NCBI GenBank assembly: GCA_948567375.1
Contig: OX419756.1
Coordinates: 39,756,333 to 39,820,332, forward strand
From: Lunularia cruciata
Taxonomy: Eukaryota; Streptophyta; Marchantiopsida; Lunulariales; Lunulariaceae
Direction: 5' to 3'
Length of the DNA stretch: 64,000 bases
Positions 2,020-60,576 of this stretch are shown here, piece after piece. The notes under the pieces are model-generated. The model made no database searches. It saw nothing but the letters and a program-made list of their open reading frames with translations, and was not told the DNA's origin. How positions within the stretch are numbered: the stretch's first letter is position 1; each line of letters begins with the position of its first letter. The translations under genes were made by a program, and so were the position numbers.

Positions 2020-2022
2020 ACC
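1903..2022. repeat. Imperfect tandem repeat, two ~46-bp copies
   Basis: Copies at 1903-1948 and 1976-2022 share a segment running from TGATTT through CTCCATAAATTTTT to AATGTTCTACC, offset by about 73 bp. The second copy abuts the first base of C-family LTR similarity, so this repeat may mark the breakpoint where the C1 LTR was truncated. Confidence 0.6.
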
Positions 2023-2400
2023 ATTTGTAGTGTTGCATCTAGATAACTCGGATTCTGGAGTAGTAGTGTTGGTAGTTAGGAGTATTTTGGTAGTTACTCA
2101 TAGTCTACTTGTTGATGGTCAAATTTTGTGTTCAAAGTATTGACTACATGGTAGTGCCCATTTTCACTTGCACCATTTGTACCATCGGATGTGCCGTTAG
2201 TGGGACCATTAAGGTTGGAGACCAAGGGGGTATACTTTTAAAATGCAGCAATTGTCACTTAGGTTCTCTTAGTTCACTTAGGTCACTAGAGGCTTTGAGG
2301 CATAGGGCTAACAAGCCAGCTTGTTGGCGTGAGGTTAGCTAGTTTAGAGTAGTTTTTGGTCATTGTTTGGCAAAATCTGCACACCCTACTAGATTGTCCG
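2020..2400 (+). repeat. C1 5' LTR remnant
   Basis: Matches 23254-23640 in the C1 3' LTR, starting at ACCATTTGTAGTGTTGCAT and continuing with clear but diverged similarity. The first ~110 bp of the LTR, present from 23141 in the 3' copy, is missing here. The 3' limit is uncertain because the right-hand copy diverges; the LTR may extend towards 2600. The tract 2400-3150 is a presumed leader with no clear primer binding site. Confidence 0.55.
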
Positions 2401-3155
2401 CAATAAGGTTTGACCCCTAGATCTTTGGTTCATAGACTATTGCCCTAGCCAACTAGTCCACCTCACTTGTTATCCTAGTGAGTATTCCATTATTATATAT
2501 ACACCTGGAGCTTTGGCTAGGAGAGATCATTCTTGGTGATCTTGGTAGCTTAGGAAGTAGATAATTCCTATTATGTCAAATGCCAAATGGTGGCAAAGTC
2601 AATCTAGTGTTGATTTATGAGATAGAGGGTTTGGTTTAAATTTCTTGTGATTGGACCACTCTATTCTTTGCCTCCTATTTGTGCATCATGTTTGTGTGAG
2701 GTGCCTTGACTTTAGAGCGTTGGTGCTCTGGTGTGCTCTCAATAGTGAGGCTAGAGTGATGACCAATCAGACTACCTATGTTTCTCTCCAATGAAGCAAG
2801 AAGTGATAACTTGCAGACCATGAGAGTGCATGTTGTTATGGCAAGCTACAAGTTGCCCTTTCCCTTAGTATAGTTGTTGTAGTTAGAGTTACATTAATGG
2901 GTGACGTTTGGTTGATGGTGTTGGCACTTGGTACGGTTGCGGGTGCAATTTCTGGTTACTTTGTCATGACGGAGTTCTTTTTCAGAAGAGATAGCATTGT
3001 AGTACACAATGGGTTTACTCAAAGTGACACTTGATATCAACTTGTATCTTAGGTCCTAATGAGGGAGGAGATTGACTCTAAGATGGAGTTTGGCACTAGA
3101 GTTGATTCAGTTGAGAGTGCACTTGGAGTGTCTGCACCGTTGTTGTGGGACATGA

Positions 3156-3930
3156 ATGAGATTCATGTGGCCTCCAAAAGCACAAAATTACTTTGGTATA
3201 GTGGGTACTATTGATTTGGATGATTTCATCCAAGAGTTTGATAATTGGTGTGATTTGCAACAAATGTGGAACCCTACTTTGTTCACACCCTTCATGGCAT
3301 GGAAGAGGTTGCTTCAGCACTTGGAAGGTCCGCCAATGGACAACTACCAAAATTTCAAGAGAGCTCATTTGGAGGAGATAGAGCTATGGAGACAATATTG
3401 GTCTCCAAACTATGTCTTCATTACTTTAGACTCAATTTTTAAGGGTAAATCACAAGTACCCATGAGTTTTAGCTCTAATAGCATTGGTCGATCTCTTGGA
3501 GATGGTGCTAGTACAAGTGGACGTACTACTACAAGAGGTGGTGTAGTATCAAGTTTAACCCTATGGTGGAGTTCTTCTAGTGTTTGAGGTAAAACTACTA
3601 GGGAGTGCGGATTGACAAGTTGAGGAGCTTGCAAGAGTTCCAATGAAAGGTTTGAAAGAGCATATGCGAGGCATACACTTGCATGAGATGGGTGATCAAT
3701 TTTACTCAAGGAGTTATTGAAGCCCAAGCCGTCCAGTTTTGGTTTGGGATATGTTACAATGAATTGCAACGTAGAGTTCGTGATGCTACGTTGTTATAGG
3801 CTACTTTGCCTATTTTGGCAGTGATCTTTGGTTTGGCTAAGCGTATTGAGCTCAACATAGTAGAGGAGAGAGTGGTGACATCTGGATTTGATAGGGAGAC
3901 CTCATCCATAGTTGTTACTTCTTCAGGAGA
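3156..3930 (+). pseudogene. C1 gag remnant
   Basis: Decayed capsid-like gag of element C1, whose product would assemble the virus-like particle. An open stretch from 3156 to 3587 contains a DDFIQEFDNW-like start and a LLQHLEGPP segment. A second frame from about 3700 contains FWFGICYNELQRRVRDATLL, typical of the helical retrotransposon gag domain (output ELQRRVR). At least one frameshift and an in-frame stop separate them. The sequence is cut at 3976 by A1. No zinc knuckle is visible before the cut. Assignment rests on position after an LTR and on gag-like residues. Confidence 0.55.
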
Positions 3931-3976
3931 GTAGTAGAGTGCACCCGCCATGTTGGTTTCCAAGGACAAGATGGAA

Positions 3977-4666: not shown

Positions 4667-4689
4667 TTTACCCCCGGACTAAGTTTTCA

Positions 4690-9170: not shown

Positions 9171-9174
9171 TTTT

Positions 9175-9186: not shown

Positions 9187-9211
9187 TAGGACCTCTCTAG
9201 ACGACAAGATA

Positions 9212-14300: not shown

Positions 14301-16262
14301 TCTACATGAAGAAGGGTGTAGATTACATGGTGATTTTGGAGGACAAGGAGGCTCTCAAAGCTTTTGAGGAGCTCAAGCAATCCCTTGTTGTAGCTCCAAT
14401 TCTTGCTAAACCTGATTGGAGTAAGCCTTTCATCCTCTACATTGATGCTTCTTATGTAGCTATAGGATGCACTCTTAGTCAATTAGACCAAGATGGGCAT
14501 GATCATCCAATAGCTTATGCTAGTAGGCAGATGGTTTAAGCAGAGAAGAACTACTCTGTCACGGAGAGAGAGATGGGCATCATCATCCAATAGCTTATGC
14601 TAGTAGGCAGATGGTTTCAACAGAGAAGAACTACTCTGTCATGGAGAGAGAACGGTTGGCAATGATCTTTGGTCTCAAGAAGTTTAGACACTACTTGATT
14701 GGAGGGAAAGCCACCATTGTCACGGATCACAAGGCTTTGAAGTACATCTTCAACAAGCCTAATGTTGAAGGGAGACTAGTAAGGTGGATGATACTCTTGT
14801 CTGAGTATGACTACACCATCGAGGATAGGCCAGGAAAGAAACATGCAAATGTTGATTTGTTATCTAGAGCCTATGATCATGATGGAGATGAGCCAGTGGA
14901 TGATTCCTTCCTGGATGAGGAGCTCATGAAAATCTCAATCACTCAAGAGGTTCCAATGGAGTATAAGGAGATTGTGGATTTTGTGACAAGAAGTAACTAT
15001 CCAGAAGGGATGCATGCTAGGGAGAGAAAGGCCCTTGCAGCAAGATCTAGACCTTACACGATGGTGGAGGATATTCTTTTTCACCAAGGAGCAGATGGTC
15101 TACTTCAAAGAGAAATGGGTAAGGATGAGTCTATCCTACTCATAAAGGAGTTTCATGAAGGTTTAGTATATGGAAGACATTTTGCAGGAAAGGTGACTGC
15201 TTTCAAGATTCTAGATGCCGGTTACCATAGGAGAAGGATTTTCAAGGATTGTATTGATTATTGCAAAACTTGTCATGTTTGTCAAGCTTTTGCTAGGAAG
15301 TCTACATCCACTCCACCACTTAGATCAATTCCATTGCTAGGACCTTTTGAGAAGTGGGGAATTGATTTTGTAGGTCCTCTCAATAGAACCCCAATGAACA
15401 ATTGGTACATTGTGGTAGTTACTGATCACCTTACCAAGTGGGTTGAGGCTAGACCATTGAGGGACAAGAATGAAGATGAAGTGGGTAGATTTCTTTATGA
15501 ATGCATTATCACTAGGTTTGGATGCCCTTTGGAGTTGGTTTCTGATAGAGGAGGAGAGTTTACAGGAAGCATTACTACAGCCATGCTACAACATTTCTCT
15601 ATCACACATAGAGTAACTACATCCTATAAGCCAAATTCCAGTGGCTTGGTAGAGAGAACCAATCAGACCTTGAGCATGATGTTGGCCAAAGATGCAAAAA
15701 TAGAGGGGGCTAAACATCATTGGGACAAGAGGATTCATGCAGTTTTGTGGGAGTAAAGGACAACCATGAAGACTTCCACCAGATATTCTCCATTTCAATT
15801 GGTGTATGGTATTGAGTCTACCTTACCTATTCACTTTGATCTTCCTACCTTCCAAAGCATTCATAGGAGATTGAAGAAAGCACAAGGAGGTGATGTAGAG
15901 AAGTCAAGGAAGGATCAACTCATGGAGTTGGAAGAGGCAAGAGCAGTTGCTATGGTTCAAGTGGAGCGAGCCCAAAGGAAACAAAAGGAGAGCTATGACA
16001 AGAGCCAAGACAAGAAGAAGGTGGAGCCTTTCAAGGAAGGTGATTGGGTAATGTTGTTTGATTCCATTTGATTCAAGAGAGTGCAAAGAAGTTTTTGCCT
16101 AAGTACTTTGAACCTTTCATAGTGGAGAAGGTGTGGGGCAATTACACATATGATCTCAAGGAGTTGGGAAGAAGACACTTTGATAGGATTAACTATGATA
16201 AGTTGAAGATGTACCATAGAAGGAAGAGAGACCTTCACTTTGAGGACAAAGTGAAAACTTAG
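11323..16262 (+). pseudogene. A2 gag-pol (frameshifted)
   Basis: Equivalent of the intact A5 polyprotein but with many lesions. A one-base deletion lies directly after the start codons (near 11336), another near 11733 separates the two gag halves, stops replace Trp or Arg codons near 12752 and 12936, a stop lies near 14537, an 80-bp tandem duplication at 14491-14650 shifts frame, and stops lie near 15754 and 16069. The normal terminator is also lost, with the frame running on to 16262. The gag knuckle CFGCGGRGHIQRNCP, RT DFIDDFCVYG and the integrase GIDFVGP and SDRGGEF motifs are all recognisable. Non-functional. Confidence 0.9.
14491..14650 (+). repeat. 80-bp tandem duplication in A2 RNase H region
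   Basis: Segment 14491-14570, beginning AGATGGGCAT, is repeated at 14571-14650 with a few differences (GATCATCC versus CATCATCC, TTTAAGCAG versus TTTCAACAG). Eighty is not a multiple of three, so the duplication shifts the pol frame. A5 has a single copy. Confidence 0.9.
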
Positions 16263-16274
16263 TCCGGGGGTAAA
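16261..16274 (+). other. A2 polypurine tract
   Basis: AGTCCGGGGGTAAA directly precedes the 3' LTR (TGTAACACCC). The same tract, reverse-complemented, borders the A5 3' LTR at 54150-54163 and the A1 and A3 3' LTRs. It would prime plus-strand DNA synthesis. Confidence 0.8.
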
Positions 16275-16966
16275 TGTAACACCCATTTATGCATGTGTGT
16301 GATATTGTGATATTTAGCTTGGTATTACAAGTACTTAAGAGATATTATTTATATAGAGATAAAGGATGGTTCTATATTAGTCATGGTTAGCTTAAGTTAG
16401 TCATAGCTAAGATAGAGGGGACCTTACTTGAGAGGAAGTAGAAAAGATGAGTACCACTATTTTGGACTTTAGTGTGTTGACTTGGTATTATTCCTAGGTG
16501 TTTGGCTTTGAAGAAAGAGTTGAGAACTCTTGGGCCCGCAAGCCTTTTTGTTTTGGATTCTTCTTTAGTCCAAGGATAGCTCATGTGAAGGAATCCTTGA
16601 CTTAATGGTTTGGTCAAGATAAGACCACATGCTTAGGGGAATATACCCATGTGAATGGATATTCCTTTCTACTTTTTGACTTTACTTGACTTTTAGTCTA
16701 GTAACTTGAGTTACTATGGTAATTAGTAACTTTGGTATGTAACTATTTCACAAGTATATAAACAAGGGGTGAGGAGGTACTCATCATCCTTTCATTTGCA
16801 ACTATCTCTCTCTCATTGAGTTCTTTAGTGAGCAATGTCTTGAGTCTTGGAGTGTTAGCCTTGGAGGAGTATGATGGAGTTGGAGTTCCTTGCCTTCTTA
16901 GTCCATGGTGCGCTACCATAATAGCCATTAGAGGTTCATCTTGAGTGAGAGACAGGCCGGCTCATA
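16275..16966 (+). repeat. A2 3' LTR
   Basis: 692-bp LTR from TGTAACACCC to GGCCGGCTCATA, with the terminal CA mutated to TA. It matches 8486-9170 apart from scattered substitutions and a 7-bp difference near 16847. Confidence 0.92.
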
Positions 16967-18011
16967 GAGCACTGTCCCTTCTCATACTTGCTCTCAACCA
17001 CATCAACCACATATGGATGCTATCCCCTTACCTTTGTTTGGATTAGGAGTCACTTGGGTTTCACTACCTCCCTCTTTCCCTCTATTGGCTCACTCATAAC
17101 CCCTTCCTCCATGGTAAGTTGAATTTAGGCAATTCCTTTGGAAATGGCCTCTTCCTCCACAACCAAAACAATTTCTATCACTGAAATTGTTGGTTGGTTG
17201 GCCTCCACTATATGGATAGTTTCCATAACTCCTAGGCCCTCTCCCTACATTCTGATCCCCCTCTCTCTTCTCCCATAGTTGCACCACATTGATATTGAGA
17301 TCCCCAAGTTGTTCTATGATGGTTTGAAGTGGATCTTTTGGTGAAGGTGCAAGAATTGGAGCAACTACTACTTGTGGTGCAACCCTTGTCACCAAAGTAT
17401 CAGAAGTTCCACCATACTTGTAGCCTTGAGGAGGATGCACAACCTCCTTCACCACCAAATCACTCTCATCCCCTTCCAAACTCTCCTCCATACGAATTGC
17501 GATCTTGATAGCTTCAACCTTGGAAGAAGGTTTCTCATATCTCACCTTGCTTCTAATTTGTGGTTTCAATCCTCCACAAAATTCTTGGTGAGCATGGCCC
17601 TATGCCAATCATTGTAGTCTCCACATCATCCCCACCCTTCCTCAACACTATGTGAAATTTGGACTCTAACTTTTCCACTCTTTCCACATAGACTCTCACT
17701 TTATCTCCATCTCCTTGTTTGAGAAAGGTAACCTCACTCATCAATCTCTCATAACTCTCATCTGGAATAAAGTTCTCAATGAGTGCTGAAGTCAAAGTCT
17801 CCCAAGACTCCTCTTCCCCATCTCTCCTCTCTCTCTTTTGGTATTCTGACTCATACCATGTAAGTGCTGCATCCTCAAAGAAATCTGGTAATAATGAGGC
17901 CCACTCATTCTTCCTCCTCTCATTGTTTCCTATGCAAGCTCTCTTGAAATCTTTTACAAAGACCTCTACATCTTCTCCATCCTTGCCAAAGAAAACCAAA
18001 AGTTTCCCCAT
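16967..18011 (-). pseudogene. A1 gag N-terminal part (broken)
   Basis: Continuation of A1 on the far side of A2. On the minus strand it starts with MGKLLVFFGKDG at 18011 and keeps the retrotransposon gag domain (WASLLPDFFEDAALTWY) and zinc knuckle CFGCGGRGHFQRNC near 17150. A frameshift near 17560 (VGGL region) and another near 17095 break it. The sequence ends at 16967 where A2 begins. In the intact A5 copy this frame runs straight into protease. Confidence 0.85.
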
Positions 18012-18432
18012 TTTAACCCCTCACTATCTTTCTTTTCTCTCAATTTTTTTTTTCTCTCACTTTGTTACTAATAGAGTATATACATGACTAACACCATTTG
18101 AGAATAATCCACTCTAGGGAACACAAAAGGTTCAGGTTGCTCCAAGATTTCTATAGCAATATCAAATCCTATAGTGCATATTAATTGAACTCTCATGGAT
18201 AGTTTATCCATAAGTTGAACGAAATTCATTAAAATTTAAAGCTGCTTTCTCTTTTACGCTGTACGGCCCTGGATTCGCTATGCTTACTGACATAGCGAAT
18301 CAAGCCCCCTGCTGATTATCTCCATCACTAATCTTAAGACCTAGCTGATGAAGGTGGTAGTATTTCTATAGATGCACTTAGACTCTCTCCAAGATCCTTC
18401 ACCAAAAACTCCAAAAGTGCTTTTACTCCACT

Positions 18433-18801
18433 TCACTCATGTCCTTTTGGAAGTCCTTCAACTCCACAAACCTCACACAACTCCTTGGTCTTAGATCTTC
18501 TCCCTCCCAATCTTGGTGAAGATGGTCCAACATGCAAACCCAAGTCAAGTAAACCTCTCTTTTCTCTCAATCTCTTGATCTCAAAAGTCAATGGACATGA
18601 ACTTGCTTTATGTCCCTTCTCTCCACATAAAAAGCATTTAGACTCACTCTTTCCTCCAAGCGGTATAGGTTTTTGGATCCTCTCAACACTCTCTTCAAAT
18701 TCTATTGTAAACCCTCTTTTCCTCAAATCCACCTCTACAATCACCTCAAACCCTTGGGGAACCTTGCATAGTCTCAATTTCCACTCTTGGTGACCCTCCA
18801 T
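18433..18801 (-). pseudogene. A1 upstream ORF0 (truncated)
   Basis: Starts MEGHQEWKLRLCKVP at 18801 and keeps the knuckle CFLCGEKGHKASSCP. The frame stops at GLPKGHE near 18433, about 35 residues short of the 157-residue A5 and A2 versions. The lost C-terminus lies in the diverged sequence 18335-18432. About 100 bp between this ORF and gag (around 18230-18310) is not alignable with A5 and looks like a local insertion. Confidence 0.75.
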
Positions 18802-18869
18802 GTTCCCAAGATGAATCTAAACACTCAAACATGCTTTTTATTGCTCTCAAACTCTTCATGCATGAGATG

Positions 18870-19133
18870 GGCCCAAGAGTTCTCAACTCTTTCCTCAAAG
18901 CCAAACAGTTAGGAATAATACCAAGTCAACGCACTAAAATCCAAAATAGTGGTGCTCATCTTTTCTACTTCCTCTAAAGTAAGGTCCCCTCTATCTTAAC
19001 TATGACTAACTTAAGCTAACCATGACTAATATAGAACCATCCTTTATCTCTATATAAATAATATCTCTTAAGTACTTGTAATACCAAGGTAAATATCACA
19101 ATACCACACACATGCAGAAATGAGTGTTACAGA
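18870..19133 (-). repeat. A1 5' LTR, truncated
   Basis: About 264 bp of A LTR ending TGTTACA at 19133. The internal junction near 18870 joins the ORF0 leader (GCATGAGATG) directly to mid-LTR sequence (GGGCCCAAGAG), so the rest of the LTR, the primer site and most of the leader are deleted. Confidence 0.85.
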
Positions 19134-20110
19134 CCGGAGCACGTTGGCATGGTAAGACAGATGGGAGATGGTGCCAGGTTGGCATGCATCAGCCTTTTTG
19201 TGTATATTTGCAGAGGCTTTGGTGGTATCTCTCTCAGTGCATACATGAGAGGTTATTGAGGTCATAGATCCAAAGAGTGAAGATATTGGTACAGTTCAAC
19301 AAGACATTCATGATGATGTCTTAGTGATGGACTATCTTCACATTAGCGTTGTGGGTGGCACAGTGGGGGCCAAGGAGAAAGACCGTGTTCTTCAGCAAGC
19401 CAGACGGTTCAGATTGGAGGGTAGACATCTTTTGCGTGTATGGGAGGATGGTAGAGTGCAAGTAGTACCACTTCCATCTCAGAGACCACAGTTGGTCCGT
19501 CATGCTCATGAGGAGCTAGGACATTTTGGAGTAAAGCGTACGTATAGCTTACTCTAGAGTCATTACTGGTGGCACGATATGCAGACAAAGGTACAGCAAT
19601 TTGTTGCTAGATGTGTGGTTTGTGACCGAGTTAGAGCATCATTCAATGCTCCTACGCCACAATTACACCCATTACCTATCATGGAATTGGGTTACCGTTG
19701 GAGTTTGGACTTTGCTGGACCTTTACTGCTAATTGTGAGACATCATCGATATGTTTTGGTGATGGTGGAGCACTTCTCCAAGTGGATTGAGTTGGTGGCA
19801 CTTCCTAACAAGCCTAGTGAAGGGACGGCTTACTCGTTCCTGGATCGAGTTCTTAGTCATTTTGGTGTACCAGATGAGGTTTTGATTGATTAAGGTATAG
19901 AGTTCTTGGGGGAGTTTCAAGTCTTGTGTGACAAGGCTTTGATTGATTGCTGTTCTACCTCCCAAGATCACCCTGAGGCAGATGGCTTAGCAAAGAGAGT
20001 GGTTCAGACGATGAAGAGAGGATTGCAAAAGTATGGTTTGCAGAGAGGCCACTTGGGAGATTGGGATCTCCAATTACCTTGGTTGGCCATGGGCTGTCGG
20101 TTCAGACGGT
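19134..20110 (+). pseudogene. C1 integrase, N-terminal and core part
   Basis: Integrase joins element DNA to the host genome. The HHCC zinc-binding module is seen as HAHEELGHFG near 19500 and CVVCDR near 19615. The catalytic core has SLDFAGP (first Asp, near 19707) and VLID-stop-GIEF (second Asp, near 19890, with CAA read as TAA). The third acidic residue is lost: the ERVVQ seen in C2 reads AKRVVQ here (GAG to AAG, near 19992). Stops lie at 19555 and 19891. The frame is cut near 20110 by an insert and resumes near 22331. It follows A1 directly. Confidence 0.85.
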
Positions 20111-22330: not shown

Positions 22331-22972
22331 CAATGGCAAGCCTCCTTAGCATCCTTCTATCTGTGCTTTCTACTCTATGGACAAGATCTAGATTTACTTG
22401 CAGCCATTCATCAAGATGTTATTGTAGTTTTGGACTTGGATGACCCAGATGTATTGATGAGCGCACGTTCTCAACGGGTAGAGATCTTTCAAAGAGTGAT
22501 GCCGATGGCCTTTGAGAACTTGGCAATTGCTTAGCATAGAGATACTTTACGCTATGCTACCATTTGAGGAGGAGATTATAGACCCTTGATCCGTCAATTT
22601 CACCCAGGAGACTATGTATATCTACAACAAACAACACCAATGACACTTGATGTTTCTACAGGCCGCACTACCTTGAGAGTGCGTGAGGTTTTGCCATGTA
22701 GAGTCCTTGTGTTTGAAGGACATGATGGTGTTATTTAGAAGGATCATCTACGCAATTGTATGCCCTGCCACCTCCCAAACATTGATGGTACTATGGACCC
22801 AAGCTTAGCACTTGTACGTGCAGGCTTGAGGTGTATATTATGTGGCTCTTCTGGTGAAGCTGCTACTATGTTAGTGTGTGATAGCTGTTTGAGAGGATGG
22901 CATATGGCATGTATGACTCCTCCCCTCACAGTGGTTCCTCAAAGACAGTGGTTATGTCCTAGATGTACTTGA
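22331..22972 (+). pseudogene. C1 integrase C-terminal part with PHD finger
   Basis: Resumes the integrase region with YGQDL-like residues (near 22380) and the post-core module FHPGDYVYL (near 22600), then VREVLPCRVLVFEGHDGV. One in-frame TAG at 22736-22738 (probably a former Trp) separates this from a C-terminal extension that reads in the same frame through a complete PHD finger to the TGA at 22970-22972. Chromoviruses have a chromodomain at this position. Because the frame continues from the integrase module without a shift, I read the PHD finger as part of the pol polyprotein, not as a separate gene. C2 is interrupted by A3 just before the corresponding position. Confidence 0.8.
22832..22966 (+). 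other. PHD-finger domain at the C1 pol C-terminus
   Basis: All eight zinc ligands are present in the order C-x2-C-x11-C-x2-C-x4-H-x2-C-x14-C-x2-C, which is the canonical Cys4-His-Cys3 PHD pattern. Key segments are CILCGSSGE, CDSC, RGWHMAC, PPL and WLCPRC. The Trp two residues before the final CxxC pair is the conserved structural one. PHD fingers usually bind the histone H3 tail. In an integrase the likely role is choosing chromatin for insertion, by analogy with chromodomains. The domain has no internal stop. Confidence 0.88.
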
Positions 22973-23130
22973 CCTATAGCTAGTTCATTCTTTATATGGT
23001 ATAGATTGCAGACAGACAACTAACAATGGGGCTCCATAGCACATGGCCTCCTGATCTTTGCCCATCATAGGGTATACCATATACTTAGAGTAGATGGCTA
23101 TCTGGAGTTAGAGGGACCTAACTGCCAGCT

Positions 23131-23693
23131 AGGGGGCGATTGTGGCACTTTAGAGTCTATGTATGACTAATGTGTGAGTTGTGCTTCTATTGTGTATGAT
23201 GTTGACAGCGATGTATGTTGTGTAATGATATATATACGCACGACATCTGTCACACCATTTGTAGTGTTGCATCTAGATGCTCAAACACTGGAGTTCCAGT
23301 GATAGTAGTTAGAGGCATTTTGGTAGTTACTCATAGATTACTTTCGGACGGTCAGATTTCAGGTTTAGGGTACTGACTTCATGGCGGGGCCCATTGTCAC
23401 TTGCACCGTCCGCACCATTGGGTGTGCCATCAGCGGGACCGTTGGGAAGAGACCTAGGTCGAAATCAGGGGTATACCTTGGGAGTGCAGCTCCAGAGAGC
23501 TCACTTCTCTAATGTTGAGCCTTCGAGTTCTTGGCTAGAGTGGACAAAAAGCCGGCAAGCGTCACCTGGAGTCTCTTAGCTAGAGTGGGTGTGGCTTGAC
23601 TGTAATCAATGCACTATTTTTGGCAAGTTGTTGAGGATCAGATCAAGTATTGATCTGAGTTTGATTGATTTGAGTGGTAAACAATCTGATTAT
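23131..23693 (+). repeat. C1 polypurine tract and 3' LTR
   Basis: AGGGGGCGA at 23131-23139 is followed by TGTGGCACTTTAGAG at 23141, a typical polypurine tract and LTR start. From 23254 the LTR matches the 5' remnant at 2020-2400. The LTR-like sequence then appears to restart near 23694 (GCACTTTAGAATC), taken here as the start of C2. Between 22973 and 23130 there is only 3' untranslated sequence. Confidence 0.65.
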
Positions 23694-24189
23694 TATCGCA
23701 CTTTAGAATCTATGTATGACTTATATGTGAGTTGTGCTTCTATTGTGTATAATGTTAACAACAATGTATGTTGTGTAGCAATGTATATTTGCACAAAAAG
23801 AGGGAAGAAACAACCTTTATAGACCAAGTGAGCAGTCATGTGAAGGATAGGTATGTCGCTTACTAGTATGCTTTAGTAATGGTAGTCTTGGCTCACTACA
23901 ATCAAGGACCATGGTAGCATCAGTTTCAGCTTTCAATTGTTTTGTTACTTGGCCTAGTGATTTATTGGAGGGGAATGCCCATGCAGAAGATACTCCAATA
24001 CCAAAGGAGATCACTCGGATTTGGAGTATGAGTAGGATCATTCCATCCACCTTGGATGTTCCTTTGTGGAGTTCAGAGGAGGCATTGCAATAACATGTGG
24101 TCAATTGATGCATTAGGCTTGGAGTGGAGCCTTTGTACCATCAGGAGACTAGTGTGAGGATGAGCCTCAATAGTCAATTACCTTGACAC

Positions 24190-26340
24190 ATTTGGATACC
24201 ACACTCCTTGCTTGGTAGTATCCAATAAAGGGAGTATGTCTATTGAAGTTATTTGGTGGGATTAACACTGGACTAGTTGTGGAACTATAGGCGGGTACAC
24301 TAGTACAAAGGTACTTGTATGTGGAGAGAGATGAGATTGCTAGGCAAGTCTCTCTACATCATGTGCCACACTTGGCCTATTGGTATCTTGAGTTATTACC
24401 AATGTTAGCCATCAAGGGTTACCAGATGTAATACCAATAGCTAGACATATGATCTAGAGGTGAATATGGTTTGGTAAAATTTAGAAGGATGTTATATATG
24501 ATAGGCTAAATATATCAGATAGAGATATCACCAAAAGAGTACTTTTACTAATAGGGCAAAATCCAAAATAAACTTGAAAACCTTAGAACCAATAGCTAGA
24601 CATATGATCTAAAGGTGAAATTTGGTTTGATAACATATGGAAGGATGTTATACATGATAGACTAAATAGATCAAAAATAATTATCTCCAAAAGGGTACTT
24701 TTACTAATAGGGCAAAAACCAAAATATGCTTGAAATCTTTAGAGGTAATTTCAAGATGGATAAAAAATGGATAGATTAGGCTCAAAAAATGTACAATTTC
24801 CCCCTAGGAAAGAAAATGCTAGCTTTCCTTCCTCCCATTTGTCTCATCAAGCACTTTCCAATAGTACCTCACCCATATAATTTGGAGAATCCCTATAAGA
24901 AGATTCCCTTTGGTCAAAATTGGTTTGACCAACCAGATTGGACCAGGTCTGACATGTCACGCATGCATGCATTTCATCTAAGGATGGAGATCAATGACAT
25001 ATCACAAATCCATATATCTGATCAAAGGGTTAGGCTTCTATTGAGTGTCTCTACTTTTCTATATAATAAAACCAAGGTGCTTCTTTGGAGCATCAAAGTT
25101 TGAGTGTGAAACTTATGTTTTCTCTTCTATATTTCTCTACTATCCTTAGTACTAGATTTCTACTACAATGATATTAGAGCAAGTGTTTCAATCCAAGAGA
25201 GTGGATCAACCCTCTTGGAAGAACATGAGCTATTGAAATTGAGTAATTTTGAGGAGGAAAAAAAAAGCACAAAGCAATTGATAGGTTAGGAGTGTTTTAA
25301 AGAGACAATAAGATGGAGGCTCTTGGAGGACAATTTCTTGCACCTCATTTTCCATTCTTGAATCCATTTCACATCAAGGTCATGTACATCCAACGTGCAT
25401 CTAATATGAGAGTGGAGATCAATGACATGTCACAAATCCATGTATCTGATCCAAGGGTTAGGCTTTTGTTGAGTGCCTCTGCTTTGCTATATAATAGAGC
25501 CAAGGTGCTCCTTTGAGGCATGGGAGTTTGTGTGTGAAACTTGTGTTTTCTCCTTTGTGTTTCTCTACTATCCTCAAAATATTACACCAGAAGACCCTTC
25601 TAGCATACAATTTCTTGCTAGAGGTGAGATCTCAAGAGACATGGTCCCATTCATTTGGTGATTTTTGGATGGCCATGCTAGGGGCATACAAGTGGTGGCC
25701 GAGGTTTGGGTCTTTAAGATCCCCATTTTGGTATGTTTTGGTAGATATTACGGATACTATGATATCTCCAAGTTCATCAATTTGTTTCTCCAGCTTACAT
25801 TTTGGAGAAGATCCCTTTGATGGATGATTCTACACCAAGGTGATGGCAAGTACACATCAGGTCCATTCTGGGATGGGACTTGCCACATTGTTAGATGTAG
25901 TCGGAGTGAGATCATGAGCTCACTGTCTTCATCTTTGGTGGACAAACCTCTTACCTAGAGAGGTTCTACAACACACTTATGATGGGATTCAACGATTAGA
26001 CCATATCATTGTTGATGACATCTTGGATGTTAGGTGTCAGTCTCAAAGAGTGGTAGTGGCTGATAGGTCACCTATGGTAGTGGTGAACCTAGTTGGACAG
26101 TCCCAAGCCACTTTTGCTACATTCATGAGTTTCCCAAGCTCCCATGCTTTTAGAGAGGGAGGTCCTAGACTATTTGGGACTCATAGTTATAATAGTTAGT
26201 GTAGTCCAACGCCAATGAGAGAAAGCGTATGATGGCTTTTCACATTGGTATAACCATTGTTCTAGTAGTGTTAGAGGCATCCAAGCTTCAAGTGTTAGGT
26301 CGGCTATGGACTTGAACTATTTGACCTAGATTGTGAGCCT
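24190..26340 (+). pseudogene. C2 cytosine-5 DNA methyltransferase domain (decayed)
   Basis: C5 DNA methyltransferases transfer a methyl group from S-adenosylmethionine to cytosine. Motifs appear in canonical order once B3 (24427-25586) is ignored. Motif I (cofactor) is LFGGINTG at 24249-24272, followed by YLYVERDEIAR (motif II-like). Motif IV, FGWPC, places the catalytic Cys at 25676-25678; the next codon, normally Gln, is TAG. Motif VI reads EKIP at 25805-25816, where ENVP is usual. A motif VIII-like LHLWWTN lies at 25927-25947. FMSFP near 26130 and AMDLN at 26303-26317 fit motifs IX-X. The domain totals about 900 bp, the size of a minimal catalytic domain. Stops and at least two frameshifts make it inactive. 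It lies upstream of RT, and I infer it was part of the polyprotein. Retroelement-borne methyltransferases have been reported in charophyte algae and dinoflagellates. Confidence 0.85.
24427..25586 (+). mobile_element. B3, internally deleted B-family element
   Basis: A 741-bp B-type LTR (24427-25167, TGTAATACC...CTACA), a degenerate tRNA-iMet primer site (TGATATTAGAGC from 25169) and about 240 bp of leader, joined near 25411 to the last ~175 bp of a second LTR ending ATTACA at 25586. The 5-bp repeat CCAGA flanks it (24422-24426 and 25587-25591), so it transposed as an element with two LTRs and then lost everything between the leader and the 3' LTR end. The fused leader still shows the start of the B leader ORF (near 25313). 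Confidence 0.9.
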
Positions 26341-26819
26341 TGGCTTGGTAGAGAAACATATGATCCACTTGATAGGCATCACCACTTGGACACTTGTGAG
26401 CTCTTTGCCTATCAAGATGATTTAGGCACATGTTGGAGGGCAATAGACTGAGTGGACATGGTATTCTTGGGACACATCCAGTGGCTACTAAGGAGAGTGG
26501 TCTATTTGGAGTCCATCTAGGTGAACGTGGTCACCTTTGGTCTACTTGGGATGCAGCTAGAGGACATATGGAGCTTGCAGTCAGAGTGGAGGGAGTTTTT
26601 CACACTAAGGTTGGGACCTCTAATGGTTTGGCATGACTATACTGCATTTAAGGGCCCAATGTAGTAGCTAGTCAATATGTCTTCCACTCTTATGATAGTT
26701 ACAAAGGATACTTGGGAGCCAAACCCAGAGAGTTTGGAGGTTCTTGAGGAGCTACACAGGTTATTTTACCGTCAATATGAAGGATTTGGATGCTTTGAAA
26801 GGATTTGGTATTAGGATTG

Positions 26820-28100
26820 AGCTAACTAGCAATACACCATTTTTTTGACATCCATATCTACATAGTAACATGAGAGAGCATTGATTCAAAGTTAGAGTAG
26901 ACCTTTTCGAGGCTAAATTGATAGAGATTTCACATGGAGAATATGCATCAGCTATAGTGATGCCAATTAAGAAGGATATGCATGGCAACTACACAGATAG
27001 GCAGATGTGTGGAGATTACCATCCTATCAACCAGTAGACTAGAGCTGATTGGTATGCCATGTCTACACCGGAGGAGATCTTTGATGTGATTGGGCATGCA
27101 AAGATCTCTAGTACTTTGGATCTTCAAGCGAGATATCATTAGTTTCCAATTAGGGAAGACGATAGGTCCAAGATAGCATTTGAGCTATTGATTCTCATGG
27201 CAAGGATGTGTTATGTTAGTAGAGGTTCTTACCATTTGGGTTAAAGAATGCTCTTACTGAGTTCCAAAGGGTCATGGACATGATCTTAGCTAGATTAAAA
27301 ATTACTTGGTGCTATATTGATGATATTTTGGTTTATAGTACTATTATGGAGTGTTTGAGAGGTTGAGATCTCATGGAATCAAAATATATCCTAGAAAGCA
27401 TAGGTTATTCCACAAGCAGGTTGAGTATTTGGGTCACACTATCTACCTTGGAGGACTTTGTATCCATAAGACCAAGGTGGAAGTTATTGCGTGTATTCCT
27501 TGGCTTATAGATATGAGCAGAGTGTAAGCATTCATTGGGTTGGCAAACTTCTATTGCCGCTATGTTAGAGGATTTAGTAGCATTGCCAAGGCCTTGACAA
27601 GGCTTACCAAGCTTACACATGAGTGGTGTTGGGGAGATGAGTAGGAGAGAGCTTTTGGAGAGCTCAAGGAGACGTTGACATCTACTCCTATTTTGAGGAG
27701 ACTGATCAGAGGATGAACATTTCAAGTTCACACCAATTGGAGTATGTTGGAGCTTGGAGCAATGCTCACCCAACATGATGATGAGGGGAGCAAGTTTGTG
27801 GTGGCCTATGCTAGTTGCTCCAACAATTCAGCAGAGGCAAAGTATAGTTCATATGAAAGAGAGTGCTTAATAGCAATATGGGTAGTAGCACATTTTTTAT
27901 GTTACTTGTTTGGTAATGCCTTTGCTCTCATCATTGATCATTAGCCATTGAAGTGGTTGATGGAGTCCAGCAAGCTTTTAAGGAAGCTTGCATAATGGAC
28001 TCCGATAGAATTTACAAGAGTATGATTTCATAATTATTCATAGACTTGAAGTGTTGAACCATGATGCAAATGGATTGAGTAGAAATCCATGTCCTAGCCA
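26820..28100 (+). pseudogene. C2 reverse transcriptase and RNase H (decayed)
   Basis: RT copies element RNA into DNA and RNase H removes the RNA strand. RT motifs are MPIKKDMHGNY near 26960, MCGDYHPIN near 27009, STLDLQARYH near 27112 (the usual Gly is Arg), RFLPFGLKNA near 27223 (one frameshift before it) and the catalytic YIDDILVYS near 27313. RNase H shows LGAMLTQHDDEGS, AKYSSYERECL and IIDH near 27940. Stop codons occur throughout, many at former Trp or Gln codons. The CGDYHPIN style of RT differs from the RTs of A, B and E and marks C as a separate lineage. The interval 26340-26820 has short frames only and may hold the protease, which I cannot identify. Confidence 0.85.
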
Positions 28101-28149
28101 ACAGGATCAAACTGGAGCATGTTAGCATGGTGAGAGAGATGAGAAGATG

Positions 28150-28657
28150 GTGGTACATGCCAGGTTGGCATGTATCTACCTTTCTATATATTTTCTAAGG
28201 CTTTGATGGTATCTCTCTTAGTGCATCCAGGAGGAGTTATTGAGGTCACATATCTAGAGAGTGCGAATAGTGGTACAACTCAACAAGACATTCATGATGA
28301 TGTCTTAGTGATGGACTATCTTTACACTAGTGTTTTGGGTAGCACAATTGAGGCCAAGGAGAGAGACTATGTCCTTCACCAAGCTAAGCGGTTCAGATTG
28401 GAGGGGAAACACCTTCTTCATGTATGGGAGGATGGTAGAGTGAGAGTAGTACCACTTCTTTCTTAGAGACCACAGTTGGTCTGTCATGCTCATGAGGAGC
28501 TAGGACCTTTTGGAGTAAAGCATACATATAGCTTACTCTAGAGTCATTATTGGTGGCATGGTATGCAAACCAATGTACAGTAGTCTGTTATCAGATGTGT
28601 GGTTTGTGACCAAGTTAGAGCATTGAATGATGCTCTAACTTGGTCACAAACCCATTA
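28150..28657 (+). pseudogene. C2 integrase N-terminal part
   Basis: Corresponds to 19134-19670 of C1: HEDV-like linker, QAKRFRLEGKHLLHVWEDGRV (near 28381, quoted residues are a sample), HAHEELGPFG (second His of the zinc module now Pro) and CVVCDQVRA near 28597. It ends in a perfect foldback (28601-28652) and is then interrupted by B2. Confidence 0.8.
28601..28652. repeat. Perfect 23-bp inverted repeat, 6-nt spacer
   Basis: The left arm 28601-28623 (GGTTTGTGACCAAGTTAG...) is exactly complementary to the right arm 28630-28652. The left arm is normal integrase coding sequence, as seen in C1 at 19618-19640. The right arm replaces the sequence found at that place in C1. The B2 TSD starts at 28653. 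Confidence 0.95.
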
Positions 28658-29236
28658 TGTAATACAAGCAACTAGAGGTGAAAATTGGCTTGGTAATATC
28701 TAGAAGGATGTTTTTTACAATGGGCTAGGTAGATCAGATAGAGGTGTCACCAAAAGGTACTTCTACTAATAGTGTAGAAACCAAAAATAGCCTAAAAACT
28801 TTAGAGTTAATTTTGGAAGCCTAAACGGATGAATTAGGCCTCAAACATGGAACACATATGTCCCTTAGGAAGAAAAGGCTTTACTTCTTCACCTATGATC
28901 TCATCAATAGATTTCCAATGGTACCTCATGCATGCAATTCTGAGCTCCCTACAAGAAGATTCCCTAAAGATTCCCTTTGGTCAAACCCATTTGACCAACT
29001 AGATAGGACAAGGACTGACATGTCACCCATCCAAACAACTAATCCAAGGATGGAGCTCATTGACAAGTCACAAATCCATGTATCTGATCCAAGGGTGGAG
29101 CTTCCTTTGAGAGGATCCTCTTTGCTATATAATAAAGAGAAGGTGCTCCTTGCGGGCATTGGAGGATTGAGTGTGAAACTTGTGTTTTCTCTCTTGTAAC
29201 TCTCTTGGAGAGTTCTCTTGTCCTTGGAATGCTACA
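28658..29236 (+). repeat. B2 5' LTR
   Basis: 579 bp, TGTAATACAAGC...GCTACA, containing a TATATAATAAAG box near 29128. Pairs with 34393-34988. Confidence 0.9.
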
Positions 29237-31059: not shown

Positions 31060-34000
31060 GTTAATTGTTGTTAATAGAGTACTAGAAGGCAATCCGATGA
31101 AAGTGTTGATAGACCCCATGGCAATAGATAATTTCTTGTTTTCCTTGTTGCAATAAGGTTGGGAATGGAACTAGAGAAGTATGAGAAGGACAAAGTAGAG
31201 TTACCTAATGGTCAGACAAAGAAGATTGAGTTGTTACCAAAAAAGGTTATACTCTTTATAAGAGGGTATCAAGAAGCAATCAAGTGGTAAGTGATACAAC
31301 TAGCTTTTTATGATGCAATCTTAGGTATACCGTGGATAGAGCACTACAATTCCATTGTGGATTGGAGAAAGAAAGTAGTGAAAACTAGTCAATGGAAGAT
31401 CTTTGGGATTAAAGGAAGATCACAAAGGCAAGAGTTGCCTTTGTATGCTATCAAGACCACATCTATTGGTAAGATAGATAGATGCTTCAAGGGTTTAATA
31501 AAAGAAAGACCAGAGTGTCCAACATAATGGACAAATTCTTGAGAAATTAAAATATGTGGTCAATGAGTTTCAAGATGTCTTTCCGGATGAAATACCCGTA
31601 GGTTTACTACCAAAAAGGAGAGTAGATCATAAAATTGAGATACTTCTTGGGAAGATACCTCCTTGTAAGGCCCCATATCAACTATCACCTCATGAGTTAA
31701 AGGAGTGTAAGGCTCAAACTGAGGATATGTTGCAGAAGGGGTTTATCCAACCCAACGTATCACCATATGGGGCTCTATATTGTTTGTGAAGAAGGACAAA
31801 ATAATATGCATGTGCATTGACTACCTAGGGATTGAATCAACAAATGGTGAAGAACAATATCCATTACCTTGTATAGATGACTTGTTTGATCAAGTCAATG
31901 GGGCAAAGCACTTCACCAAACTTGATTTGTGGAGCGGTTACAACCAAATCAAGATTGCAAAAGAAGACATACACAAAATGGCCTTTCGAACAAGGTATGG
32001 TCAGTTTGAGTACTTGGTGATACCATTTGGCCTCACCAATGCTCCAACCACTTTCATGAGTTTGATGAATGACATATTTTGTCCACACTTGGATAAATCT
32101 ATTATCATTTTTCTTGATGACATCTTAGTCTATAGTAGGTAGATGATAGAGCATAAGCAATATCTGCAAGAAATCCTCCAAATTTTGTGACAGAATCAAT
32201 TGTACGCCAAAATCTCAAAGTACAAGTTTTGAAAATCTGAAGTAGACTACTTAGGGCATATAGTAAGTGCAAAGGGTATCCAAGTGTTTATAGATTAAAT
32301 AGAGGTCATTCAAAAATGGAGTACTCCAAAAGATCAAACTCAACTCAAGAGTTTCTTGGGATTGATGGGGTTTTATCCTCAATTTGTCAAGGCCTTCTCT
32401 AAGATTGCACAACCTTTACCATCACTGTTGGAGAAGAGAAAGAGGTGGATATGGGGAGACACACAAGAATTAGTCTTTTAGGAGTTGAAAGACATATTAC
32501 TACATGCACTAATCTTGAAATGAGATGACCTAAAATGTCCAATCAAGATGGCAACACATGCATCAAGTCTAGCAATAGGAGCAGTCCTATGGCAGGATGG
32601 ATGGCACTCAATTGCATATTTCTCTTGTAAGTTGCTACCGGTAGAATGCAACTATCATACCACCAAATGAGAAGAGCTGGCTATTGTCCTTGCAACCAAG
32701 CATTGGAAGCACTATGTGGGTGAGAAGTCATTTGTAGTAGAGACGGATCACAAACCTCTAGTCTACCTCAAGACACAAAAAGATATTTCTCATCGATAGA
32801 TTTGATGGGCAAAGTGGAGATAACAATTCAACATGACAATCAGATATGTGGAAGGCAAGAAGCAACTTGCAGATGTGTTCAAACAAATGCCAATGGCAAA
32901 CAATTTGGTGGTGGAAATCATGATGAACTCTAAATTCTGGCCTAGGATGTTTGCTGCTACAAAGACTAATCCATAGATTGTAGATGCTCAATCATCCAAA
33001 GGCATCACCAACACCCAAGGACTCACCTTCCGTGATGGCAGGTTGTGGATCCCAGATGATACAGATATAAGAACAACCATCCTAGTAGAATGTCATGATT
33101 CTGCCATTGCAAGTCATGTTGGAATGGACAAGACCTTGGATGCAATCAAACATTATTACTATTGGTCTAAGATGAACAACAATGTGATGAAATATGTTTG
33201 GAGCTACCTAATTTTTCAACAAAATAAGGCTTCTAATCAAGCTCCCACAATGACTCCTCTAACCTCTCCTTACTCCTACACAATGTTGGGAACAGGTAAG
33301 CATGGATCTGGTTTGTGAATTGCCCAAGACCACCTTTGGGTTTGGTTCCATTGTAGTCTTTGTCGACCAACTTAGCAAAATGATTCATGTATGTCCTACC
33401 ACCAAGGATGTGACTGCTCCACAACTAGCTCAATTGTACTAAGATGTAGTATTTTCCCATCATGGTTTGTCTTGAGTGCTCATCATAGATAGAGACACTC
33501 AATTCACTAGTTTGTTTTGGAGTCAATACACTCTTTGGGTTCTTCAAAACCAAATTGGCTATGCCACAACTTACCATCCATAGACCGATGGAAAAATAGA
33601 GAGTGAAAATTGCACTATTGAAGACATGCTTCAAGGCTTTACTTTGGATAAGCAAGAGAGTTGGGACACCTTACTCCCATTGGTGCAATTTGCTTATAAC
33701 AATTCAGTGAATGCCTCCACACAAGTCAAATTGTTCTTCCTCATGTAGGGAGAGCATCCTTTCACACCTTCAAGCTTGATGACGGTCCATCCGGTGGCTA
33801 CCAAGGTTGATGTTATCAACACTTTTGTTTCTAAAATCCAACATGGGGTAGAGCACGCCAAGCACAAGTTGCAGATCGCCCAAAATCAGCAAAAGCAAAA
33901 TGTAGATACACAATGCCAACAAATGGAGTTCAATGTGGGAGATCAAGTCTAGCTGTCAACCACCAAACTCAAGTTAGTTGGTCCTCATAAGCTCAGACCT

Positions 34001-34392: not shown

Positions 34393-34988
34393 TGTAATAC
34401 AAGCAACTAGACATCTTATCTAGAGGTTAAATTGGCTTGGTAATATCTAGAAGGAATTTGTGTACAACAAGCTAGGTAGATTAGACAAAGGTATCACAAA
34501 AAGAGTACTTCTACTAATATGGCAGAAGCCAAACATAGCATGAAAACCTTAGAGCCAATTTTGGAAGCCTAAACATATGAATTAGGCCTTGAAAATAGAA
34601 AGATTTTTTCCCTTAAGGACAAAAGGCTTACCTTCTCTCCCCTATGATTCATCTTGTGAAGAGCTTTCCAATGGTACCTCACTATGTGATTTTGAGCTCC
34701 ATACAAGAAGATTCCCTAAAACTTCCCTTTGGTCAAACCAGTTTGACCAACTAGATAGGACAAGAACTGACATGTCACCTATCCAAACAACTAATCCAAG
34801 GATGAAGTTCATTGAAAAGTCACCAATCCATGTATTTGATCCAAAGGTGGAGCTTCCTTTGAGAGGATCCTCTTTTCTATACAATAAAGAGAAGGTGCTC
34901 CTTTGGGAGATTGTAGGATTGAGTGTGAAACTTGTGTTTTCTCTTGTGTAACTCTCTTGGAGAGTTCTCTTGTCCTTGGAGTATTACA
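34393..34988 (+). repeat. B2 3' LTR
   Basis: 596 bp, TGTAATACAAGC...GTATTACA, with a TATA-like ACAATAAAGAG near 34879. Pairs with 28658-29236. Confidence 0.9.
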
Positions 34989-34993
34989 CATTA

Positions 34994-35860
34994 CCTTTCA
35001 TGAGGTTGGGTTATTATTGGAGTTTGGACTTCATTGGACCTTTATCATTGACTGTGAGACATCATCGGTATGTTTTGGTGATGGTAGAGCACTTTTCCAA
35101 GTGGATTAAGTTAGTGGCATTTCTTGACAAGTCTAGTGAAGGGACGACTTACTTGTTCCTAGATTGGGTTCTCAATCATTTTGGTGCACCAATTGAGGTT
35201 TTGATTGATCAAGGTATACAATTCATGGAAGAGTTTTAGGTCTTGTGTGACAAGGCTTTGATTGATCATTGTACTATCTCCCAAGATCACCCTCAGGTAG
35301 ATGGCTTAATAGAGAGAGTGGTTCAAATAGTGAAGAGAGGATTGTGGAAGTATGGTTTGAAGAAAGGCCACTTGGGAGATTAGGATCTCCAGTTACCTTG
35401 GTTAGCCATGGGCTATTGGTTCAGCCGGCAAGCCTCCTTAGCATCCTTCTATCCTTACTTTCTACTCTATGGACAAGATCTAGATTTACCTATAGCCATT
35501 CCTCAAGATGCTACTATAGTGTTGGACTTGGATGATTCAAATGTATGGATGAGCGCATGTTCTCAATTGGCAGAGATCTTTTGGGAAGTGATGCCGATGG
35601 CCTTTGAGAACTTGGCAATTGCTCAGCATAAGGATACCTTACTTTATGCTACCATTTGAGGAGGAGGTTATAAACCCTTGATCTGTCAATTGCATGATAG
35701 AAAGTGACTATGTATATCTAGAACAAAAAAGCACCAACAACACTTGATGTTTTTGTGGGCCATACTATCTTGAGAGTGTGTGAGGTTTTTCCATCTGGAG
35801 TCCTTGTGTTAGAAGGATGTGATGGTTTTTCTTGGAATAATCATATGCACAATTGTGCAC
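34994..35860 (+). pseudogene. C2 integrase core and C-terminal part
   Basis: Resumes after the B2 TSD. The core keeps SLDFIGP, VLIDQGIQF and GLIERVVQ, so all three catalytic acidic residues (Asp near 35031, Asp near 35209, Glu near 35311) are present, unlike C1 where the Glu is Lys. Stops lie at 35237 and 35382, and a frameshift near 35420 precedes LYGQDLDLP. The C-terminal module reads to NHMHNCAL and is cut by the A3 LTR at 35861, one step before the position of the PHD finger in C1. Confidence 0.85.
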
Positions 35861-36528
35861 TTTGAGCCGGCCTGTAACTCACTCAAGAAAAACCTTTGAT
35901 GGCTATTATGGTAGCACACCATGGACTAAGAAGGCAAGGAATCCCAACACCATCATACTGCTCCAAGGCTAACACTCCAAGACTCAAGACATTGCTCACT
36001 AAAGAACTCAATGAGAGAGAGATAATTGCAAATGAAAGGATGATGAGTACTTCCTTACCCCTTGTTACACCAATGTTACAAAAACCTGGAGTAACTCAAG
36101 TTACTAGGCTAAAAGTCAAGTAAAGTCAAAAAGTATAAGGAATATCCATCCACATGGGCATATTCCACTAAACATGTGATCTTATCTTGACCCAACCACT
36201 AAGTCAAGGATTCTTTCACATGGGCTATCCTTGGACTATAGAAGAATCCAAAACAAAAAGGCTTGCGGGCCCAAGAGTTCTCAACTCTTTCTTCAAAGCC
36301 AAACACCTAGGAATAATACCAAGTCAACACACTAGAATCCAAAATAGTGGTGCTCATCTTTTCCACTTCCTCTAAGGTAAGGTCCACTCTATTTAGCTAT
36401 GACTAAATTTAGCTAATCATGATTAATGTAAAACCATCCTTTATCTCTATATAAATAATATCTCTCAAGTACTTATAATACGAAGATAAATATCACAATA
36501 CCACAAACATGCACAAATGGGTGTTATA
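35861..36528 (-). repeat. A3 3' LTR
   Basis: 668 bp, plus-strand TTTGAGCCGG...GTGTTATA, with both terminal dinucleotides mutated (TG to TT, CA to TA). Polypurine-tract complement TTTACCCCCGGACT follows. The left end abuts C2. Confidence 0.88.
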
Positions 36529-36559
36529 TTTACCCCCGGACTAAGTTTTCACTTTGTCC

Positions 36560-39080: not shown

Positions 39081-39119
39081 TGGATAGTTTATCCATAACT
39101 TGAAAGATTATCTCTGTCA

Positions 39120-49378: not shown

Positions 49379-49379
49379 A

Positions 49380-60558: not shown

Positions 60559-60576
60559 TATCTTGCCTTCTAGAGA

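Follow-up and report, generated by a model that had tools for sequence, protein, structure and literature searches.

A stretch of 64,000 nucleotides from the genome of the liverwort Lunularia cruciata (contig OX419756.1 of assembly GCA_948567375.1, positions 39,756,333 to 39,820,332 of the forward strand), referred to here as the window, contains a decayed and interrupted part of a Ty3/gypsy element, which carries a DNMT3-type cytosine DNA methyltransferase (DNMT) on the Gag side of its polyprotein. An earlier note, made from the letters of the window, had described a dead DNMT domain with five C5-methyltransferase motifs, split by an insertion and followed in the same orientation by a reverse transcriptase (RT), and each part of this description was borne out. 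In the translated window, LFGGINTG is positioned at 24249, FGWPC with the catalytic Cys at 25676-25678, EKIP at 25805 and LHLWWTN at 25927, and AMDLN was placed at 26303 by tblastn, in a different frame from the other motifs. Stops and the change of frame mark the copy as dead, RT lies downstream on the same strand, and the insertion is a repeat with kin elsewhere in the window. The parts of this copy (copy 3) are given below, with identities to L014, one of the open-frame copies of the same genome.

23802..24426, forward strand: stretch between protease and DNMT, and DNMT start with motif I (LFGGINTG, 24249); 82.9% identity to L014 3363-3989, tblastn 4.8e-73
24427..25585, no strand: repeat inserted in the DNMT gene and foreign to the element; self-BLAST, kin at 28672, 34393, 48642 and 62312
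25586..26330, forward strand: remaining DNMT with motifs IV (FGWPC), VI (EKIP), VIII (LHLWWTN) and X (AMDLN, other frame) and internal stops; alignment and translation
26331..26704, forward strand: spacer between DNMT and RT; collinear with L014
26705..28623, forward strand: RT, RNase H and integrase start, frames broken; tblastn of the second open reading frame (ORF2), 62.7-76.8% identity
28624..34985, no strand: nested insertions splitting copy 3, including a further gypsy element whose RT is near 31810-32856; break in the collinear alignment, tblastn 34.9%
34986..35858, forward strand: core and C-terminal region of the integrase, truncated at 35858; 85.9% identity to L014 7116-7983

The window is collinear with the open-frame copies over 23802-24426 and over 25586-28623, where the DNA identity is 82.4%, and the DNMT-bearing ORF matched the two DNMT stretches by tblastn at 4.8e-73 and 8.5e-70. 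Chance occurrence of the motifs is ruled out by the collinear alignment and by tblastn against the genomic copies. The profile match that the earlier note had suggested as a check was not obtained with the unjoined DNMT pieces of the window (Pfam, none of five submitted; seven stop-free pieces listed), so the DNMT domain of the window is provable solely via the genomic copies. Judged by these window pieces, the refuting condition named in the earlier note would have spoken against the finding. Positions 3984-3989 of L014 align on both sides of the 24427-25585 insert, as expected from a 6-bp duplication. A TAG is retained at 26662-26664, at the same place as the in-frame UAG of the genomic copies.

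These genomic copies are abundant. A six-frame search of the source assembly (565.8 Mb, 74 contigs) with the DNA methylase profile PF00145 scored 123 of 2161 candidates, which gives a lower bound: at least 123 matches are present, all above the cut-off, most covering about 48-120 of the profile and many lying in long open frames. Twenty copies (L009-L028) were fetched from the 123, picked by longest open frame, and three of them share 96.2 to 98.9% identity with the other nineteen across 6 to 9 kb. A DNMT 28-mer was found at 3532 genomic places (up to two mismatches) and an RT 28-mer at 3217, the backward control giving 0 in both cases. For 52 of the first 100 exact DNMT matches listed, the same strand carries an exact RT match no more than 2.5 kb further downstream (chance 0.003 per place), and the distance is 1353 bp in 33 of these 52 pairs. 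Furthermore, DNMT, RT and a PHD finger form a single collinear block in all 20 fetched copies. A genome check for the segment adjoining a CGDYxPIN-type RT, proposed in the earlier note, gives such pairs by the thousand, and in the fetched copies the open frames are long and no catalytic motif is missing. Because of the fixed spacing and the one block in 20/20 copies, the DNMT-RT unit is mobile as a whole and is not a host fragment.

Four copies were read at both ends, and the repeats A1 and A2 at these ends diverge by a K2P distance of 0.007 to 0.023. The plant substitution rate is about 7e-9 per site per year. At this assumed rate, which is not calibrated for the host, the four datable copies are young, roughly 0.5 to 1.6 million years. 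Ty3/Gypsy bursts have been reported for Lunularia cruciata (580 Mb) in a paper whose main text does not contain the word "methyltransferase" (PMC9985172).

The element has the layout A1 - Gag-protease-DNMT - UAG - RT-RNaseH-integrase-PHD finger - B1-A2-B2, where A and B are repeats. ORF1, with up to 1428 codons between stops, encodes Gag with zinc-knuckle motifs, a protease (LLDSGAQ) and the DNMT, which matches PF00145 at 31.2 bits; Gag and protease are named by motifs and relatives (protease also by our own profile), the Pfam gag match on ORF1 being sub-threshold. ORF2, 1037 codons long in two copies, has the Pfam domains RVT_1, RT_RNaseH, H2C2, rve and PHD. The order protease-RT-RNaseH-integrase with a DDE integrase is that of gypsy elements. 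The PHD finger (PF00628, 39.1 bits) has its best PDB matches in CHD4, PHF12 and KMT2D. By Pfam, no chromodomain was found in ORF2 and no ADD or PWWP domain in ORF1, and the scan of both ORFs found no tyrosine recombinase, with the rve integrase in its stead. In 20/20 fetched copies, ORF1 and ORF2 are separated by one in-frame UAG, with CAG as the next codon.

The element ends are not two identical intact long terminal repeats (LTRs); the repeats are split instead, so that the 5' end has A1 (about 450 bp) and the 3' end has B1 (107 bp), A2 and B2. All four copies read at both ends have these split repeats together with 4-bp target duplications (GAGG, AACC, AGTG and AATG). The termini are TGTC...GACA, with the outer ends TGTCAC and CGACA, and such termini with 4-bp target duplications make it most likely that the DDE integrase, not a tyrosine recombinase, inserts the element. 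When integrated, the element resembles a two-LTR circle that was cut open within the LTR, at the palindrome GACA-GC-TGTC where B meets A. An ordinary LTR, made of B and A with the G-rich tract before B1, would have been opened at this palindrome, as from a circular form. The B1/A2 border itself reads CGACA-GC-TGTCAC, and its 10-bp palindrome GACAGCTGTC is made from the two outer ends of the element (L014:8362-9025, L029:2075-2526). The G-rich tract CTAGGGGGGCG stands directly before B1. The motif ATCAGAG is found just after A1 (L029:2527-2545); it agrees with the core of the plant initiator-tRNA primer site, without the TGG start, and the agreement may be chance.

The catalytic motifs of the DNMT are kept in the twenty natural copies, in the unpermuted order I-IV-VI-VIII-X. 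By sequence, the domain matches DNMT3A in the PDB (8.5e-9). An AlphaFold2 model from 24 aligned sequences (mean pLDDT 93.5, pTM 0.92) matched DNMT3 chains in all 50 PDB matches listed, the best with an E value of 6.5e-20, a TM-score of 0.84 by target length and 22% identity, and the modelled domain is thus nearest in fold to DNMT3A/B. In an alignment of 57 element DNMTs from this and related elements, 54 rows have the catalytic Cys (the others being two gaps and one Tyr); the motif VI Glu is found in all 57 and one motif VIII Arg in 55 (two gaps). The Pro position of motif IV is more variable: it is Pro in 30 rows, Glu in 26 (WECQ for WPCQ) and a gap in one, and in host DNMT3, host DRM and DNMT3A it is Pro.

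Taken together, the window holds part of a dead copy of a very abundant Ty3/gypsy family with a DNMT3-type enzyme and a PHD finger, and this explanation as a whole is likely. Since the DNMT precedes the UAG, it would be expected at Gag dose in the particle: it would be made at the level of Gag and not of RT, giving many enzyme copies per particle. For the predicted DNMT to methylate newly made element DNA (cDNA or the fresh insertion) during or right after reverse transcription, the chances seem evenly balanced. Rather more probably, by analogy, the PHD finger would direct the integrase towards chromatin in a particular histone H3 state, in the place of the chromodomain of chromoviruses. The likely gain would be that a new copy arrives pre-marked as silent chromatin and disturbs host genes less, or that the cDNA is shielded from attack. 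The Gag dose of the DNMT, the tethering by PHD and the origin of the repeats by LTR opening are all read from the anatomy of the element.

Selection on the element was studied with the variants of the 20 fetched copies, on the premise that private variants are mostly post-insertion and shared variants mostly inherited through transposition. Private transitions per site amount to 0.0159 at CG, 0.0153 at CHG and 0.0030 at CHH, about five times rarer at the last. This excess at CG and CHG indicates that inserted copies are probably methylated in the genome, where such changes recur. With CG/CHG transitions set aside and stop codons counted as amino-acid changes, private and shared variants differ in their ratio of amino-acid-changing to silent changes: in the DNMT, private 32:20 and shared 5:16 (p 0.0045); in RT-RNaseH, 32:21 and 1:11 (p 0.0012); and in Gag-protease, 84:38 and 6:17 (p 0.0003). 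For the PHD finger the numbers are too small (private 2:2, shared none). On this test, the DNMT is kept by selection as RT is.

Several points weigh against this explanation. The setting aside of CG/CHG transitions was decided after a first, non-significant result: with all variants, stop codons excluded, the contrast has the expected direction in the ratio of amino-acid-changing to silent variants (private 1.82 and shared 1.04 in the DNMT, p 0.12; 1.12 and 0.61 in RT-RNaseH, p 0.17) and is not significant, nor is the test for Gag-protease (p 0.17). Integrase gave no contrast even after filtering (private 16:5, shared 2:1). The excess of CG/CHG transitions fits methylation by the host equally well as self-methylation. 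Readthrough of the UAG is suggested by conservation and frame, and the steps that would have produced the split repeats are likewise a reconstruction. A PHD finger was found by our own profile in none of 12 Closterium proteins with integrase, several of these proteins being cut short (P0049, P0051, P0054, P0073, P0077, P0079, P0116, P0137, P0139, P0151, P0152 and P0173). It seems to have been lost in Closterium, and with 12 of 12 proteins lacking it, the finger is not needed everywhere. In addition, the published DNMT domain of the Klebsormidium element was inactive in yeast, a result that the authors call inconclusive (PMC5890265).

The same element may carry an enzyme that acts on host chromatin, rival elements or RNA, for example by tilting the host methylome or by protecting genomic RNA in the particle. 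We regard this as unlikely, with some points to its credit. The DNMTs of dinoflagellate SymbioDIRS elements carry out de novo CG methylation in yeast, as the main text of PMC5890265 describes, the copy number of the present family is very high, and the WECQ form of motif IV in 26 of 57 members suggests that some lineages may use another substrate or another chemistry. However, the present results contain no link to host targets, and the nearest folds are DNA enzymes of the DNMT3 type.

The family has relatives well beyond Lunularia. A first protein search returned 48 relatives, with 15 from Marchantia polymorpha (59-72% identity), one from Sphagnum fallax, one from Closterium and 31 others. 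A search started from Closterium returned 41 proteins, mostly of Closterium, with two from Klebsormidium nitens and one from Monoraphidium neglectum, and a search by RT, with 120 of 3394 matches listed, included Calypogeia fissa, Riccia sorocarpa, Klebsormidium, Tetraselmis and a EukProt transcript. Our own profiles detected a DNMT in 111 of 205 sequences and a PHD finger in 70. Pfam was applied to 11 proteins and confirmed the DNMT in eight (P0085, P0105, P0134, P0024, P0073, P0002, P0012 and P0080), finding none in P0169, P0199 and P0084; it found the PHD finger in four (P0105, P0134, P0024 and P0199). P0169 is presumably of Tetraselmis, from its gene code Tetstr, and its DNMT call comes from our own iterated profile, without Pfam support. 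The Monoraphidium protein P0084 was found at 1.2e-19 in the Closterium-started search, though without a Pfam DNMT. The DNMT precedes RT in the proteins of bryophytes, Closterium and Klebsormidium. In one group of other relatives its place is between RNase H and integrase, and in P0084 it comes after RNase H. Two viral-contig loci were rejected as relatives: the enzyme of L033 matches phage DNA methyltransferase families, the piece in L034 is very like L033, and our own RT profile found nothing in either. In Klebsormidium, KFL_013780010 (P0117, RT part) and KFL_013780020 (P0080, Gag-protease-DNMT) have consecutive locus tags, on contigs each of 7,497 bases, and form two ORFs as in the liverwort element.

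In trees, which are all unrooted and hold rows gathered by searches begun inside the lineage, the DNMTs and the RTs of these elements each group together. All 57 element DNMTs fall on one side of a 100/100 branch, with host DNMT3, host DRM and DNMT3A on the other (these being the three non-element eukaryotic DNMTs of the tree; 54 of 111 DNMT-matching sequences were left out for a short or broken match), and 18 element DNMTs hold together at 92/96 with a phage enzyme added. A first RT tree, without 48 of 167 RT-matching sequences, separates 110 rows, 46 of them with a DNMT in the same protein, from nine other gypsy RTs, none with a DNMT or PHD finger, at an SH-aLRT of 99. A tree of 36 hand-picked rows separates 28 lineage rows from eight other gypsy RTs at 100/99; here the group label was assigned by us, and 20 of the 28 show a DNMT (our own element included), the other eight being RT-only. 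Common descent with the Klebsormidium elements is thus found by both RT and DNMT, in unrooted trees with few non-element DNMTs. The earlier note had left a choice between a related lineage and an independent capture, and a related lineage is favoured, since both RT and DNMT fall together with the Klebsormidium and Closterium enzymes and with those of other bryophytes. From these comparisons, one RT lineage, with a DNMT and, outside Closterium, a PHD finger, spans bryophytes and streptophyte algae, and traces of it are seen in chlorophytes.

Gypsy elements may instead have captured DNMT3 several times independently, as the 2018 paper proposed for Klebsormidium (PMC5890265), which we consider improbable. 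The DNMT occupies two positions, either upstream of RT or flanked by RNase H and integrase, Closterium elements are without the PHD finger, and with three non-element eukaryotic DNMTs in the tree a host DNMT nested among the element ones may be missed. On the other side stand the single 100/100 branch beyond which all 57 element DNMTs lie, the 18 that hold at 92/96 with the phage enzyme, and the RTs, which form one lineage against other gypsy elements in both trees (110 against nine, and 28 against eight at 100/99).

It is more doubtful still that the DNMT is kept for binding or particle structure and not for catalysis. The Klebsormidium domain gave no methylation in yeast (PMC5890265) and the Cys is lost in one of 57 rows; against this, Cys, Glu and the motif VIII Arg are kept in 54 (two gaps), 57 and 55 of the 57 rows, and amino-acid changes are under-represented among shared variants in the CG/CHG-filtered test. 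A host DNMT gene fragment brought beside RT by nested insertion, as a window packed with nested elements might suggest, has next to no probability and is refuted by the genomic copies, given the fixed DNMT-RT spacing (1353 bp in 33/52), the one collinear block in 20/20, and the location elsewhere of the host DNMT3 (apparently intron-split) and DRM.

The closest known system is KnitGypsy-Dnmt3 of Klebsormidium nitens, for which gypsy domains, DIRS-like repeats and purifying selection have been described and which its authors describe as acquired independently in the K. nitens lineage (de Mendoza et al., 2018; PMC5890265). As far as its main text goes, both elements have a DNMT3-type enzyme in a Ty3/gypsy polyprotein with the key residues kept, the DIRS-like repeat order A - body - B-A-B (here in 4/4 copies) and purifying selection on the DNMT (here p 0.0045 filtered and p 0.12 unfiltered). 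K. nitens proteins were also retrieved in our searches, by DNMT (P0080, P0085) and by RT (P0117, P0165, P0199). Unlike KnitGypsy-Dnmt3 as published there, the present element belongs to a land plant, occurs at about 3,500 places, and has a UAG between DNMT and RT and 4-bp target duplications, and our trees favour one lineage over the capture in the K. nitens line proposed there. The words PHD, Marchantia and Physcomitrella are absent from the main text of PMC5890265, and the PHD finger is described here; yet K. nitens P0199 has a PHD finger by Pfam.

Dinoflagellate SymbioDIRS-Dnmt3 and SymbioLINE-Dnmt are likewise retrotransposon-borne cytosine DNMTs, in hundreds of copies and, for SymbioDIRS, with two domain orders; unlike the present element, they are tyrosine-recombinase or LINE elements, only distantly related to LTR Gypsy, and a PHD finger is unmentioned for them in the same main text (PMC5890265). 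With DIRS/PAT elements the present element has in common the split direct repeats, but not the tyrosine recombinase. Chromoviruses among the Ty3/gypsy elements have a chromodomain at the integrase C terminus, which is held to tether their integrase to a histone state. The present element has a histone-reading type of domain at the same place, but a PHD finger instead of a chromodomain. Chromodomains in LTR elements are named in PMC6338049. The motif order I-IV-VI-VIII-X and nearest fold are those of DNMT3A/DNMT3B and plant DNMT3, whereas the identity of about 22% (to a DNMT3 chain), the branch separate from host DNMT3 in a tree with three non-element eukaryotic DNMTs, and the lack of ADD and PWWP domains by Pfam set the enzyme apart from host DNMT3. 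At loci L001 and L002 the host retains its own DNMT3, in two or more exon-like pieces, and a DRM whose motifs are permuted. A single sentence of PMC12344493 refers to retrotransposon DNMT3s in streptophytes and dinoflagellates, and literature searches reaching few subscription journals found no paper on land-plant members or the PHD finger. As far as these searches reach, the land-plant members, the PHD finger, the UAG split, the two DNMT positions and the broad lineage in place of a K. nitens capture are apparently new.

The window also contains remains of other copies of the family. Copy 2 ends just upstream of copy 3 (23794 and 23802, respectively), and its PHD finger matches PF00628 at 44.8 bits (1.3e-11).

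19130..20109, forward strand: copy 2, stretch after RNase H and integrase; 93.5% identity to L014 6578-7558
22335..23138, forward strand: copy 2, integrase end and PHD finger (together 22335-22972, the finger at 22832-22966) and 3' untranslated part; 87.9% to L014
23139..23245, forward strand: copy 2, repeat B1; 93.5% to L014 B2, inside the collinear block
23248..23692, forward strand: copy 2, repeat A2; 81.6% to A1 of the L029/L014 copy
23692..23794, forward strand: copy 2, repeat B2 and 3' end of copy 2; 86.4% to L014 B1
2021..3975, forward strand: further old fragment with part of repeat A (2021-2216), 5' untranslated region and Gag; 74.6% and 79.7%

Two other repeat families are present. 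One, at 24427-25585, 28672-29236, 34393-34988, 48642-49598 and 62312-63033, has copies 71-96% alike that lie in or beside dead element copies. Another, large family occupies 3975-18868, 35852-39342, 44957-48641 and 53465-61278 on both strands, with 82-99% between copies, and its RT and integrase are gypsy-like (tblastn, 27-33% to the element ORF2).

Tentatively, one green-plant gypsy lineage may have carried a DNMT3-type writer and a PHD reader (lost in Closterium) since before the parting of bryophytes, zygnematophytes and klebsormidiophytes, perhaps since before the chlorophyte/streptophyte split; the writer would have moved between two places of the polyprotein, would be packed at Gag dose and would methylate the element's own new copies, and liverwort methylomes would be partly transposon-written. 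As a whole this is a rather speculative reading, and its probability is lowered by the Closterium proteins without a PHD finger. A single old lineage is suggested by the RT tree, in contrast to the capture reported for the K. nitens line (PMC5890265), and the PHD finger places a chromatin reader beside a methylation writer in one element. With thousands of copies and kin in Marchantia, the role of retrotransposon DNMTs, a question left from 2018, can be tested directly in land plants. DNA methylation is directed mainly at transposons, and a transposon family in which selection has preserved a methyltransferase of its own over deep time would reverse that relation.

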